64,000 nucleotides of DNA from Acetobacteraceae bacterium (GTDB lineage Bacteria; Pseudomonadota; Alphaproteobacteria; Acetobacterales; Acetobacteraceae), in the NCBI GenBank assembly GCA_025354865.1, contig JANXMB010000087.1, positions 1-64,000 on the forward strand, written 5' to 3'. Position 1 is the stretch's first letter. Every line of letters starts with the position of its first letter. Below the pieces are notes generated by a model, which saw nothing but the letters and a program-made list of their open reading frames with translations, was not told where the DNA came from and did no database searches. The position numbers and the translations under genes are program-made. Positions 9,329 to 40,482 of this stretch are shown piece after piece.

Positions 9329-10948
9329 TCAGGCAGCGCGGGCCAGAGCGGTGCGGCCCAGGATCAGGTCCGATGCCTTCTCGGCGATCATGATGGTGCC
9401 GGCGTTGGTGTTGCCCGACACCACCGTGGGCATCACCGAGGCATCGACAACGCGCAACCCCTCGATCCCATAGACTCGCAGTTCGGGGTCCACGACCGCC
9501 ATCGGGTCGACGCCCATCTTGCAGGTGCTGGTGGGGTGGAACACCGTCCCGCCGGTCGCCCTGGCATGTTGCAGCCATTGCTCGTCGGTTTGCACCCCAT
9601 CGCCGGGCAGGAATTCCGACGCCACATAGCGGCTCAGATGCGGGGATTGCAGGAGATCCCGAGCGATCTTGAGGCCGCCGACAAGGGCGCGGCGATCGGT
9701 TTCGGCGGCCAGATAGTTTGGTCGCATGGCCGGGGCGGCGGCGGGATCGGGCGATTTCAGGGCGATCTCACCCCGGCTTTCCGGTCGCAACTGGTAGGCG
9801 ATGATTGTGAATCCCGACCATTTATGCAGCCCGTCCTGCGGCCGATCGGCGCTGAACGTGGAGATCGACAGCTTCACGTCCGGCGTCGCCAGCTCCGGCC
9901 GGGTGCGGGCGAACAGCGCCACGGTGGCCGAGATCGCCGCCAGATCGCCCTTCCGCCACAGCAGATACTCCAGCCCGGTGCGCAGCTTCTTCAGCGGGCT
10001 CATCATCGTGTCGTTGACCGTGATGGGCATCGTGCATTTCAGCTTGATCGGGGCGGAGTAGTGGTCCTGCAGGCTTTGCCCCACGCCCGGCAGGTGGTGC
10101 ACGACCGGTATCCCCATCTCCTGCAAATGCGCATGCGGCCCAACCCCCGAGAGCAGGAGTATCTGCGGCGATCCGATCGCGCCGCCGCACAGGATGGTTT
10201 CCTTGCGGCCGCGGGCGATCTTGTCCTGCCCGTTCTGGCGGAACGCGACGCCGATCGCGCGCTTGCCCTCGAATAGGATTTTTTGGGTATGGGCATGGGT
10301 GACCACGCGCAAGTTGGGCCGTTTCATCGCCGGATGCAGGTAGCCGACGGCGGTGGAGCACCGCTTGCCGTTGCGGATCGTGGTCTGATGGTAGCCCACA
10401 CCGTCCTGTTCGGCGCCGTTGAAATCGTCGTTGCGTTGGTAGCCGGCTTCGTTGCAGGCCTTGATGAAGGCCTCGCACAGCGGATGCCCGTCCTGCACGT
10501 CGGACACGCAGAGCGGCCCGCCGGTGGCGTGGAAATCGTCGGCCCCGCGCGTTTGGTGTTCCGCCCGCTTGAAATAGGGCAGCACATCGGACGCCGACCA
10601 CCCGGTGTTGCCGAATTGCCGCCAGAGGTCGAAATCCTCGTTCTGGCCGCGAATGTAGACCATGCCGTTGATCGAGCTGGACCCGCCCAGAACCTTGCCG
10701 CGCGGCCAGAAAATCTTGCGCCCGGCAGCGCCCGGTTCGGGTTCGGTTTCGTAGCACCAGTTCACCTTGGGGTCGGCGAAGGTCTTGCCGAAGCCCAAGG
10801 GGATATGGATCCACATATTGGAGTCGTTGCCCCCGGCCTCCAGCAGCAGGACTTTGGTGTTCGGGTCCTCCGACAGGCGCGCGGCCAGGACGCAGCCGGC
10901 CGATCCGGCCCCCACGACGACGAAATCGGCTTCCAGTGTTTCGGCCAC
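9329..10948 (-). CDS. GMC-family oxidoreductase (choline dehydrogenase-like), paralogue 1
   Basis: A 539-aa flavoenzyme of the glucose-methanol-choline family that oxidises an alcohol with FAD. The N-terminal dinucleotide motif is [19 protein letters not shown], followed by the GMC signature [18 protein letters not shown]. The C-terminal part has [13 protein letters not shown] and [17 protein letters not shown], including the conserved His/Asn substrate-side residues. The GTG at 10948 (GGGGGA upstream) is chosen because it gives exactly the 539-aa length of the adjacent paralogue; the longer frame starts in non-homologous sequence. The two proteins are highly similar, so they arose by tandem duplication. 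Substrate is unknown; no betaine genes are adjacent. Confidence 0.86.
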
Positions 10949-11012: not shown

Positions 11013-12632
11013 TCAGGCCGCCGCTGCCAGGGGCGCGCGTCCGCGGATCATATCCGCAGCCTTCTCCGCGATCATAATCGTCGGCGCGTTGGTGTTGCCC
11101 GACGCCACCGTCGGCATGATCGACGCATCGGCCACCCGCAAGCCTTCCAGCCCGTGCACCCGCAGTTCCGCGTCCACCACCGCCATCGCGTCCGGCCCCA
11201 TTTTGCACGTACTGGTCTGATGGAACGTGGTGCCTCCGGTCCGGCGGGCATAGTCCAACAATTCGTCGTCCGACTGCACATCCGGCCCGGGCAAATATTC
11301 CGACTCGACGAAGCGCTTCAAATGCGCCGTCTCCAGGAACCGGCGGCACCATTTCAGGCTGTCCACGATCGTCCGTTGGTCCAGCTCCGCCGACAAATAG
11401 TTGGGGAACATCGCCGGGGTGTCGCGCGGATCGGCGCTGCGCAATTTCAGCTCCCCCCGGCTGTCCGGGCGCAACTGGTAACCGATCAGGGTGAAGCCAG
11501 AGAAATCGTGCAGCCCCTTCGCCGGATTGTCGGCGCTGAACGGCGAGAGGGTGAATTTCACATCGGGGGACGCATATTCCGGCCGCGTTTTGGCGAACAA
11601 GGCCACCGGTCCGACGCCCATGGTCAGCGGCCCGCGGCGGCGAAAGATATAGTCCATACCGACGGCCAGCTTGCGAAACTGGCTCTGCATCGTGTCGTTC
11701 AGCGTGATCGCCTGATTGCAGCGCAGCTTCACCGCGCCGGAATAATGGTCCTGCAAACACTGGCCGACGCCCGGCAGGTGGTGCACTGGTTCGATGCCGT
11801 GTTCGCGCAGATGCTCCGCCGGTCCCACGCCCGAGAGCAGCAGGATATGCGGCGAGCCGATGGCGCCGGCGCAGAGCACGACCTCCCGCCGGGCGCGGAT
11901 GAATTTCTTCACGCCGGCTTCCTCGAACGCGACGCCGATCGCCCGCTTGCCCTCGAACACCACGCGTTCCGTCAGCGCTCGGGTTATCACCCGCAGGTTG
12001 GGGCGGTTCATCGCGGGCTTGAGGTAGCCGACCGACGTGGACCAGCGTTTGCCGTCCTTGGTGGTGGTCTGCTGGTAGCCCACGCCTTCCTGCACGCGGC
12101 CGTTGAAATCGTCGTTGCGCGGAAAGCCGAGTTCCACCGCCGCTTCGACGAAGGCGTCGCAGATCGGATGGGTGTAGCGCACGTCCGACACCGCCAGCGG
12201 TCCGTCCGACCCGTGCCAGTCGTCGCCGCCGCGTTCCTGACGCTCCGAGCGCTTGAAATAGGGCAGTACGTCGGCGGCGGACCAGCCGGGATTGCCGAGT
12301 TGGCGCCAGTGGTCGAAATCCTCGTGCTGGCCGCGAATGTAGATCATGCCGTTGATCGAGGAGGAGCCGCCGAGCACCTTGCCGCGCGGCCAATACATGC
12401 GCCGTCCCTGGCTGTCGGGTTCGGTTTCGAACATCCAGTTGACCTTGGGGTCGGCGAAAGTCTTGCCGAAGCCCAGGGGAACGTGGATCCAGAAATGGTT
12501 GTCGTTGCCGCCGGCTTCCAACAGCGCCACTTTGGTGCCGATATCCTCCGACAGGCGGGCAGCCATCGCGCAGCCCGCCGAACCGGCGCCCACGACGACG
12601 TAATCGGCTTCCAATGTATCCGGTGCGGCCAT
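11013..12632 (-). CDS. GMC-family oxidoreductase (choline dehydrogenase-like), paralogue 2
   Basis: A 539-aa FAD alcohol dehydrogenase, tandem paralogue of the gene 64 bp downstream. It shows [37 protein letters not shown], the C-terminal [17 protein letters not shown] and [17 protein letters not shown]. It begins [15 protein letters not shown], like its neighbour. It is first in transcriptional order and the pair probably shares one transcript. Retention of two near-identical-length copies suggests either dosage or divergence in substrate. No electron acceptor or transporter gene is adjacent. Confidence 0.86.
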
Positions 12633-12854: not shown

Positions 12855-14420
12855 ATGTCCGCCATACATGGACGCCACGGTGTCACCCATCCACGCCTGA
12901 GCGCCATGGCTCAGGGCATCGGATACAGGCTTCTGTCCGCCCACGCGGCGCGGCGATCCCTGCTGACCGCCGCCAGCCCTTATGCTCGGGAACGGACGAC
13001 CGCCCTGACCGCGAAACTGGCCCGTGGCGAGACCGCCTGGCTGCTCGGCATCGGTCCGGCCGGCCATAACAGCGGTGTGGCCCTGGTCGAGGTTTCGGCC
13101 GCCGGCGGCGTCAATCCGATCTGCAACAACGAGGAAGAGCGCTACACCGGCATCAAGAACTGCACCGATTTTCCGCAGCACAGTCTGGCAGCGCTGATGC
13201 AGACGGCGGCGGGGATGGGGATTGCGCCGGGCGACATCCATGCCTGCGTGGCCAGTTGGGACTATGTCCAGCTTGCAACGACGCTGTTGGGCGCGGTCGC
13301 GGCCGAACTACCGGCGAGCCGCATCCTGCTGGACCCCGAGCAGTTCGGCGCTATGAACATCAAGCATATTCGTCGTGCAACCCGCGCCCCGGCGCAGGTC
13401 GGGCGGCAATTCGGCCTGCGCGGACCGATGCCGATCGTCGGCATGCGCCACCATGGCAACCACGCCTATTATTCCTATGCCGTCTCACCGTTCGCAACGA
13501 CCGAGGAACCGGTGCTGATCACCGTTATCGACGGGCTTGGCGACGATGGCGCGATCTCGATCTATCTGGCACGCGGCGGCACAATGTCGCTGCTGTACCG
13601 CAACAGCGACATTTTCGATTCGCTCGGCGGCTTCTACAGCATGATCAGCTCCACCCAGGGCGGCTGGACGATCCTGAGCAGCGAGGGCCGCTACATGGGC
13701 GCCGTTGCCTGGGGCGATAGCGACCGGATGACCAATCCGTATTATCGCCAACTGCGGCAGATTTTTCATTTCGCCCCGTCCGGGGAGATACGGCTGAACC
13801 GGGCGCTGGCGAATTGGCCCCGACGCTTGCAGGCGAAACCCTATACCCCGGCCCTGACCGCGATTCTCGGCCCGCCTATTCCACTCGCGAATATGTGGAA
13901 TCCGAAATCGTTGGAAACGATCAATCGGCTGGTGAAATTCGGCGAACCGTTCCGGCCGCTGGCGTCGATGGCGACATTGGCGGCGGCAAAAGCGGTGTGG
14001 GTGCTGGAAGACGGCGCCTCCGACGACGATTGGAACGCCTACAGCTACATGGTGCTGACCGCGCATCCGCGCCCTGGCACCGCCGCTGTCGTGCCGGCGG
14101 TGATCCACTTGGACAATACCAGCCGCATCCAGATCGTGCGCCCGGACACCGACCCCTTCACGCATGCCTATCTGCGGGCAATGGGGCGCCGGGTCGGGGT
14201 GGAGGTCTCGGTCAATACCTCGCTCAACGTCGCCGGGCCGGTGGTGCAGACCCCGGAACAGGCGCTGGAGGCGCTGCGCCGCACCAAGGCGATGGACGGG
14301 ATCGTGATGATCGCCTCGGACGGACGGGCCTTCCTGGCCTGGCATGCGGTCGCAACACCGCCCAAGGATGGCGGGGCGCGGTTGAATAATTGGCTTGCGG
14401 CCTGGCGTCATGGCGGCTGA
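12855..14420 (+). CDS. Carbamoyltransferase-like (NodU/CmcH family) protein lacking its central domain
   Basis: A 521-aa homologue of NodU/CmcH/TobZ O-carbamoyltransferases. Preserved: the N-terminal ASKHA start LGIGPAGHNSGVALVE (64-79), NEEERYTG, the metal-binding HHGNHA (199-204), VIDGLGDDG, and the C-terminal domain REP-like FGEPFRPLASMATL (362-375), AVIHLDNTSRIQIV and SVNTSLNV. Missing: the central GGxALN, the GDAG block and the GxRALGxRSIL motif that normally precede REPFRP. The join falls at MWNPKS (347-352, about 13,893-13,910), as though two NP motifs had been fused in frame. Catalysis is therefore doubtful. Its stop overlaps the next gene by 11 nt. The start could also be the ATG at 12906. 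Confidence 0.72.
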   Translation: MSAIHGRHGVTHPRLSAMAQGIGYRLLSAHAARRSLLTAASPYARERTTALTAKLARGETAWLLGIGPAGHNSGVALVEVSAAGGVNPICNNEEERYTGIKNCTDFPQHSLAALMQTAAGMGIAPGDIHACVASWDYVQLATTLLGAVAAELPASRILLDPEQFGAMNIKHIRRATRAPAQVGRQFGLRGPMPIVGMRHHGNHAYYSYAVSPFATTEEPVLITVIDGLGDDGAISIYLARGGTMSLLYRNSDIFDSLGGFYSMISSTQGGWTILSSEGRYMGAVAWGDSDRMTNPYYRQLRQIFHFAPSGEIRLNRALANWPRRLQAKPYTPALTAILGPPIPLANMWNPKSLETINRLVKFGEPFRPLASMATLAAAKAVWVLEDGASDDDWNAYSYMVLTAHPRPGTAAVVPAVIHLDNTSRIQIVRPDTDPFTHAYLRAMGRRVGVEVSVNTSLNVAGPVVQTPEQALEALRRTKAMDGIVMIASDGRAFLAWHAVATPPKDGGARLNNWLAAWRHGG

Positions 14421-38393: not shown

Positions 38394-38942
38394 ATGAAGC
38401 GCACTGCTCTGATGGCGGCCCTTTTTCTCGCTTCGGCCGCTCCCGCCTTCGCCGAAGAGACCGTCCAGGTCGGCGGTCAGGCGATGTACCCGTCCAAGAC
38501 CATCGTTGCGAACGCGGTTAACTCGACGGACCACACGACGCTGGTCGCAGCGGTGAAGGCCGCCGGTCTGGTGGATACGTTGAACAGCAAAGGCCCGTTC
38601 ACCGTATTCGCGCCGACCAACGCGGCGTTCGGCATGCTGCCCGCCGGCACCGTCGAAACGTTGGTCAAGCCCGAGAACAAGGGAACGCTGACCAAGATCC
38701 TGACCTATCACGTGGTCGCCGGCGATTACGACACCACCAAGCTGCGGTCGTTGATCCTCGCCGGTCACGGCAAGGTGGATTTGAAGACGGTCGAAGGTGG
38801 GACGCTGACCCTGATGATGAACGGTTCGAGCAATATCCAAATCAAGGATGCGAAGGGCAACGTCGCCGATCTCACGATTTCCGACGTGCACCAGTCGAAC
38901 GGCGTGATCCAGGTCGTGGATCGCGTGCTGATGCCCGGCTGA
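38394..38942 (+). CDS. Secreted fasciclin (FAS1) domain protein
   Basis: A 182-aa exported protein. Sec signal MKRTALMAALFLASAAPAFA with cleavage after AFA. One FAS1 domain: TLVAAVKAAGLVDTL, GPFTVFAPTNAAFGML (H1 region), LTYHVVAGDYD (YH motif) and GVIQVVDRVLMPG at the end. FAS1 proteins mediate adhesion at the cell surface. Single gene with its own GGAGA ribosome-binding site and a strong terminator. Confidence 0.92.
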   Translation: MKRTALMAALFLASAAPAFAEETVQVGGQAMYPSKTIVANAVNSTDHTTLVAAVKAAGLVDTLNSKGPFTVFAPTNAAFGMLPAGTVETLVKPENKGTLTKILTYHVVAGDYDTTKLRSLILAGHGKVDLKTVEGGTLTLMMNGSSNIQIKDAKGNVADLTISDVHQSNGVIQVVDRVLMPG

Positions 38943-39041: not shown

Positions 39042-39689
39042 CTACCCGACCCGTCCGATCCCCAGCCGCTCGGCCAAACGACCGACAACGCTCTGGAACA
39101 TGGCCGTCGTCAGCCGCCCGGTGTTCGTGTTCAAGCGCGACACATGGTAGCTGTCGGCAAGCAGAAAACCGTCGGGCAATTCGTGCAGCACCCCGTGCTG
39201 GAACGGCACGTGGCTGGCCCGCAGGCCGCGCGCGCGCAGCACCGCCTTGTGGGAGACCCCGCCCAACGCCAACACCGCGCGCACCTGCGGCATCGCTGCC
39301 AGTTCTGCGGTCAAAAATGGATTGCAAGTCCCGATCTCGGCCGGAGTGGGCAGATTGCCCGGCGGCACGCAGCGCACGGCGTTGGTCACGCGGGTATCGC
39401 GCAGCCCCATCCCGTCGGCCGCATGCGCGCCATAAACCCCCGTTGCCAACCCGAATGTGAGCAACGTCTCATACAGCAGCACCCCAGCGAAATCGCCGGT
39501 GAACGGCCGCCCGGTGCGGTTGGCCCCGCGTACACCGGGTGCCAGCCCCACCACCAGCAGCGGGGCCTCGATGCCCCCGAAACTCGGCACCGAACCATTG
39601 AACCAATCGGCATGCGCCGCGCGGTTTGCCGTCCGGTAGGCCACCAAACGCGGGCACAGCGCGCAATCTCGATCCGGGGCGTGCGGCAT
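39042..39689 (-). CDS. Uracil-DNA glycosylase, family 5 (UdgB-type)
   Basis: A 215-aa Fe-S uracil-DNA glycosylase. Four cysteines for the 4Fe-4S cluster occur as DCALC near the N-terminus and RCVPPGNLPTPAEIGTC in the middle. The active-site segment is LLVVGLAPGVRGANRTGRPFTGD (GLAPGxxGANRTGRPF) and the C-terminal motif is HPxxH-like SYHVSRLNTNTG. Removes deaminated bases from DNA. It lies 5 bp after the NYN remnant on the same strand. Confidence 0.87.
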   Translation of the reverse strand: MPHAPDRDCALCPRLVAYRTANRAAHADWFNGSVPSFGGIEAPLLVVGLAPGVRGANRTGRPFTGDFAGVLLYETLLTFGLATGVYGAHAADGMGLRDTRVTNAVRCVPPGNLPTPAEIGTCNPFLTAELAAMPQVRAVLALGGVSHKAVLRARGLRASHVPFQHGVLHELPDGFLLADSYHVSRLNTNTGRLTTAMFQSVVGRLAERLGIGRVG

Positions 39690-39694
39690 ACGGC

Positions 39695-39898
39695 TTAATT
39701 CAACGGTTCGACGAACGGGTCCGCCGGCGTCGGCGGGCTGGTGCGGATCGACGACACCACCGCGATCCGCCCCCCCTTGCGCGACACGGCCTCGATCGAC
39801 CGGCAGTAATCGACATCGAACCCGAGGTTGCGCGACGCAGAATAAAGAGTGGCTCCGTCGATCAAGAGCGCATCGCGCGCGTTCGGGAAAAAATGCAT
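39695..39898 (-). pseudogene. NYN-domain (LabA/DUF88) gene with internal in-frame deletion
   Basis: Encodes 67 residues. It starts like a LabA/DUF88 NYN ribonuclease (ALLIDGATLYSASRNLGFDVDY), then jumps to what is normally the C-terminal part (RSIEAVSRKGGRIAVVSSIR). About 95-100 residues with the catalytic aspartates of the central sheet are missing at the DVDY|CRSIEAV junction (about 39,808). The end is also short. An NYN gene next to folK-rpoZ-rsh is a recurrent alphaproteobacterial arrangement, so this is the eroded orthologue or a miniature derivative. It still has an ATG and open frame. Confidence 0.7.
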
Positions 39899-39981
39899 GA
39901 TGGCGACCTGCGGCGAATGGGAGCATGAACGGCGCCGCTATAGCAGGTCTCGTTCGCAGGCGAAAAGGCAGGATTGCCGGC

Positions 39982-40482
39982 ATGATTCTGGTGTCGATCG
40001 GGGCAAATCTACCGGGGCCGGACGGGGCTTCGGCCCTGACAACCTGCCGGCGCGCGGCGGTCGCGCTGGATACGCTGGCGGGCCTGCGCCTCAAGGGCTT
40101 ATCGCGGTGGTATGCGACCGATCCGATGCCGCCCTCGGGCCAACCCCCCTATATCAATGGGGTGGCGTTGCTGACCGGCGCGGCCGACCCGGCGGGATTG
40201 CTGGCGGCGTTGCAAGCCATCGAGCACGCTTTCGGCCGGGTGCGCGGCCTGCCCAACGCGGCCCGAACCCTGGATCTGGACATCGTCGCGATGGACGGCA
40301 TCGTGCGGGAAGCCCCCGACCCGATCCTGCCGCATCCCCGCGCGCATTTGCGTGCTTTCGTCCTCACGCCCCTTTTGGATGTCGCCCCCGCCTGGGGCCA
40401 CCCCCTGCTCGGCCGCCCCGCAGCGGCGCTGTTGGCCGAACTGCCGCTGCAAGGGGTCAGGTTCTGCGAGGAGGGAATCTAG
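39982..40482 (+). CDS. folK: 2-amino-4-hydroxy-6-hydroxymethyldihydropteridine pyrophosphokinase
   Basis: A 166-aa HPPK that transfers pyrophosphate from ATP to the pterin in folate synthesis. Motifs: [11 protein letters not shown] at the start, [20 protein letters not shown], the signature [13 protein letters not shown] (two Mg-binding Asp) and [24 protein letters not shown] 39982 matches the family start. First gene of the folK-rpoZ-rsh series. Confidence 0.94.

Follow-up and report, generated by a model that had tools for sequence, protein, structure and literature searches.

Remnant of a NYN-domain nuclease gene, probably a pseudogene, upstream of a uracil-DNA glycosylase gene in a Rhodopila-like bacterium

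When a short open reading frame persists at a place where related genomes carry a much longer gene, is it a product kept by selection or what is left of a gene on its way out? The question is raised by a 67-codon ORF in the window (the whole 64,000-nt stretch of DNA analyzed) from a Rhodopila-like bacterium of the Acetobacteraceae. A sequence-only reading had described this ORF as a NYN ribonuclease cut by an internal deletion and had set it beside folK-rpoZ-rsh. The ORF is exactly as claimed and so is its place; the neighbor on its 3′ side is a gene of the uracil-DNA glycosylase (UDG) superfamily (Table 1). It is very probably a pseudogene remnant of a chromosomal gene for a NYN-domain (VPA0982-like) nuclease, and the case is one of lineage-specific gene loss of an ordinary, known kind: measured against aligned sister sequences, about two thirds of the gene length is gone.

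Table 1. Coordinates of the remnant, its parts and neighbors, and of the second damaged gene in the window.
Feature	Position	Strand	Remarks
NYN-domain gene remnant	39695..39898	−	67 codons from an ATG start; the TAA stop, 39695-39697, is new
Remnant residues 1-31	39806..39898	−	Intact residues 1-31, with D14, the sole catalytic Asp left; genus alignment
Deletion 1 junction	39803..39808	−	93 codons, 279 nt; in-phase GAT-TAC-CGN / GAT-TTC-CGC (DYR/DFR) repeat
Remnant residues 32-56	39731..39805	−	Intact residues ~125-149; genus alignment
Deletion 2 junction, between PP and TPADPF	39730..39731	−	39 codons, 117 nt
Remnant C-terminal 11 residues, TPADPFVEPLN	39698..39730	−	Intact C-terminal tail; genus alignment
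Shine-Dalgarno-like AGG 5′ of the remnant ATG	39907..39909	−	Sisters have AGG too
5-nt gap, remnant stop to UDG start	39690..39694	−	Other genus loci: −4, −1 or +9
UDG superfamily gene (PF03167), intact, lacking its own Shine-Dalgarno	39042..39689	−	
folK (PF01288), divergent neighbor	39982..40482	+	
Carbamoyltransferase (PF02543/PF16861), 521 aa	12855..14420	+	In-frame loss of ~195 aa between residues 350/351 (near 13904/13905)

Comparison with sister genomes at the locus, which the sequence-only reading had proposed as a check, bears out that the remnant is short by loss: a profile search with PF01936 finds near-complete domains in 30 of the 32 other genomes of the genus. The 67-aa query itself has matches in 32 of the 33 genus genomes (its own included), and in the sisters its two ends find separate parts of a single longer gene. 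Thirty loci make up the alignment for the genus: the window's own, a locus truncated at a contig end, and 28 sister genes followed through to their stop, for one of which an internal GTG was taken as the start; intact orthologs are 194-205 aa long in the 28 aligned, typically about 201 aa. Among relatives more broadly, the gene is 195-225 aa long in 80 of 80 loci, the best 80 of 142 relatives found; neither there nor in the genus genomes was the short form found in another lineage. The two genomes that depart from the genus pattern do so in different ways. In G014, the profile search finds a fragment at a contig end. G030 gives no PF01936 match, and a second, independent loss in this genome is not supported: it lacks any NYN, folK or UDG match of weight and is 84% complete, so the whole locus is probably missing from the assembly. 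Outright loss of the NYN gene does happen elsewhere, since a family-wide sample has a match in 138 of 160 genomes of at least 90% completeness. One other family member (L235, G102:C135) has a NYN gene whose reading frame changes near residues 140-160, which splits the gene; both ends are recognizable. Across the family, NYN and UDG tend towards joint loss, in figures uncorrected for genome kinship: among the 20 genomes without the NYN gene that were tested, 16 lack UDG (at E ≤ 1e-20), whereas 98 of all 160 genomes have it.

Could an intact copy, or a substitute, lie elsewhere in the same genome? At E ≤ 10, the assembly yields neither an intact copy nor the missing middle, save for two weak matches (E 0.35 and 0.38). 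It does hold one other NYN gene, on contig C150; because several sisters have counterparts of it, replacement of the lost gene by a paralog was rejected.

The sisters indicate what kind of enzyme was lost. The intact protein matches PF01936 (E = 4.4e-40, 138 bits) and resembles VPA0982 (PDB 2QIP) by sequence and by fold (rank 1, E = 3.0e-10). Passages of a published account name D14, D92 and D115 as the conserved active-site residues of VPA0982 (PMC11346440); by alignment, and assuming a 3-residue numbering offset, they correspond to D14, D98 and D121 here. Both D98 and D121 fall in the deleted part, and D14 alone remains. The remnant aligns with both ends of the intact protein of this branch but differs from it in having no profile match (no Pfam family at E ≤ 1, no NCBIfam family, and a score short of the PF01936 cut-off) and in missing two catalytic aspartates; its descent from the NYN gene is read from synteny and from the sequence of both ends. 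Judged by its predicted residues, it is a dead enzyme gene, two of the three catalytic aspartates being lost.

The shortening took two deletions, not the single one described, and both are in frame. The sequence-only reading had the N-terminus fused straight to the C-terminal part, with the catalytic center skipped: the ends are indeed kept and the two aspartates gone, but residues ~125-149 and the C-terminal tail survive as separate pieces. Identity to the G020 protein is 84% over remnant residues 1-31 and 63% over residues 32-56; at the first junction, Cys32 occupies the place of Arg125. Start, stop and frame were also said to persist, which holds for the ATG and for the 67 open codons, whereas the stop is not ancestral: where sisters read CAA-GCC-TGA, a TAA now stands two codons earlier. 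The lengths add up, with G012 as the reference: 606 nt minus 279, minus 117, with the stop two codons early, gives 204 nt.

How might such deletions arise? Deletion 1 brought residue 31 next to residue 125, at D-V-D-Y-R / D-S-D-F-R. The two alpha-beta units around D-x-D-[Y/F]-R are more alike than expected from shuffling: in three sisters, 0, 1 and 0 of 500 shuffled versions matched their resemblance. The DNA common to both units, GAT-T[A/T]C-CG, makes a junction repeat of about 9 bp with one mismatch, which a 12-base repeat scan missed and which is visible only when the two units are lined up. Deletion 1 may thus have occurred by misalignment of two short repeats encoding this motif; as the copies are codon-phased, their misalignment would yield an in-frame deletion without selection, after which the sequence would have drifted under relaxed constraint. 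Deletion between short direct repeats is a known route to pseudogenes in bacteria. The present case resembles such pseudogenes in the codon-phased repeat at junction 1, the relaxed selection and the intact gene in relatives; it differs in having two in-frame deletions in one gene and in its second junction, where there is almost no repeat.

The retained codons have decayed as well. At 37 of the 66 retained sites, one residue is conserved in at least 98% of 108 homologs (which are not independent genomes, some entering under two locus ids); the remnant is changed at seven of these 37 (E7A, F12L, N17T, L127S, Q132S, V136G and V138I), whereas the homologs average 0.14 such changes and none has more than 4. 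For the NYN gene, dN/dS is 0.13-0.23 between the remnant and seven sisters (defined for six of them) and 0-0.11 between sisters; with so few codons, both the conservation and the dN/dS measures are rough. The neighbors behave differently: dN/dS is not raised in UDG (own versus sisters 0.09-0.13; between sisters 0.06-0.14) or in folK (0.12-0.19 and 0.13-0.27), so among the three genes tested the relaxation is confined to the NYN gene. A large loss of conserved catalytic sequence is hence combined with relaxed purifying selection on the remainder, two features of a pseudogene; internal stops and frameshifts, common in pseudogenes though not required, are absent from the 67 codons, the only early stop being the one near the 3′ end.

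If the gene is dead, why is its frame still open? The sequence-only reading had treated the persistence of frame, start and stop as telling, a view that is not supported: the stop is new, and the shifted frames are also open as far as UDG. Moving the frame by one base at either junction would give a fusion with UDG, and moving it by two would end translation 10 nt upstream of UDG. Since every frame of the remnant is thus open as far as UDG or beyond its start, frame persistence is unremarkable, and it was dropped as a sign of selection. The naive chance that both deletions fall in frame, 1 in 9, is a point against plain decay, softened by the codon-phased repeat that deletion 1 follows and by the openness of every frame. 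In a neutral simulation, run at assumed rates from the present remnant with substitutions only, start and stop survive in 0.25-0.52 of runs.

Two other ways of explaining the short frame fare poorly. The joined beta-alpha and alpha-beta halves might have become a small protein of new function: the two units are similar to one another, and an AlphaFold2 model of the remnant shows beta-alpha-alpha-beta, the same order as in the intact fold's first unit. Confidence in this model is low, however (pLDDT 56 and pTM 0.32, versus 71 and 0.67 for a full-length sister), and the short form occurs in no other lineage searched; with amino-acid constraint relaxed, a selected 67-aa product is unlikely, and a functional microprotein is to be regarded as extremely improbable. 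Alternatively, the gene could be intact in the cell, with two stretches lost in assembly or through strain mixture. The assembly is indeed a draft, with 190 contigs and an estimated contamination of 3.56%, but the repeat at the first junction is far below the k-mer length, assembly k-mers being far longer than ~9 bp, and an assembler would not make substitutions at near-invariant sites or a new stop. As the junction match is so short and the flanking codons are decayed too, an artefact is very improbable.

The remaining alternative concerns not the protein but the ribosomes that make it. UDG lies downstream of the NYN locus in 92 of 110 loci, the window's own included, and wherever another genus locus carries both genes (22 loci), the UDG start is at −4 (14 loci), −1 (3) or +9 nt (5) from the NYN stop, L004 being counted at its −4 GTG in preference to a +2 TTG; in the remnant the distance is +5 nt. 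The wider locus set is less uniform, with distances of more than 100 nt. At the UDG start, the duplex energy of +0.4 indicates no Shine-Dalgarno pairing, while the remnant start keeps its AGG (−3.3), within the range of NYN starts in 21 of 22 sisters (−3.3 to −7.8; in the remaining one, L009, the start used was an internal GTG). A study of termination-reinitiation regards a spacing of −8 to +10 nt as predictive of translational coupling, a range that includes the +5 nt found here, and states that the final 15 nt of the upstream gene are enough for coupling (PMC10666635). The 22 genus loci are like the gene pairs described there in that the end of NYN overlaps or adjoins the start of UDG; here, by contrast, the upstream gene is broken and coupling is putative. 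In the one literature library searched, no paper mentions both a NYN domain and a uracil-DNA glycosylase.

Has selection for UDG translation, then, kept a short translatable ORF after the protein died? The tight spacing, the retained start and Shine-Dalgarno next to a UDG that has no ribosome-binding site, and the relaxed peptide sequence all fit, and the other damaged gene in the window, a carbamoyltransferase gene, overlaps its downstream gene as well. On the other hand, UDG would be reached in any frame, so the frame of the remnant needed no selection, and four of the 20 tested NYN-less family genomes keep UDG without a NYN remnant upstream; a leader retained by selection is accordingly doubtful, if conceivable. 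Plain decay of the NYN gene is compatible with a weaker version, in which ribosomes would still start at the old ATG and stop at the new TAA just before UDG: by position, the remnant is a possible translated leader for UDG, a role that would not be what kept the frame. That a dead enzyme gene was whittled by successive in-frame deletions to a leader delivering ribosomes to UDG, its loss channeled by coupling, is unlikely.

The sequence-only reading had also mentioned, without coordinates, a second in-frame deletion of a gene core in the window. Most likely the carbamoyltransferase gene was meant, which carries the only other large internal deletion found. In its product, the match to Carbam_trans_N ends at position 245 of the 346 in the profile, and that to Carbam_trans_C starts at position 30. 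The ~195 residues missing from it are present in G025, and all four close orthologs (G025, G020, G024 and G018) show the spacing between the two halves that a full-length gene would have. Because the remaining sequence is 80% identical to that of G025, the loss looks recent. The 3′ end of the gene overlaps the start of the next (−11 nt; −19 in G025), and its decay could likewise have been channeled by coupling. Do two such cases betray a genome prone to in-frame deletions? When 746 kb of the genome were compared with 1.16 Mb of four sisters (matches of at least 55% identity), a large loss was seen, among 160 non-redundant shared sister genes, only in the carbamoyltransferase gene, the NYN gene itself having scored below the cut-off. 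In the opposite direction, one gene of 125 showed such a loss. Such a scan is blind to losses bridged inside one alignment or lying outside the compared stretches. With no further case among the 160 shared genes, a genome-wide tendency is not supported and the two damaged genes in one window look like coincidence. Elsewhere in the window, two tandem genes (9335-10948 and 11037-12620, minus strand), which we take to be oxidoreductase-like, of the GMC type, are 67% and 92% identical to a single G025 gene, and an ORF of 182 aa (38394-38942, plus strand), presumably a fasciclin-domain protein, has no listed match in the G025 and G012 stretches.

The remnant has value for calibration: in a GC-rich genome, a short ORF that stays open at a conserved place need not be a selected product. 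If the leader reading were true, the locus would in addition illustrate how translational coupling in a natural operon shapes the decay of its upstream gene.
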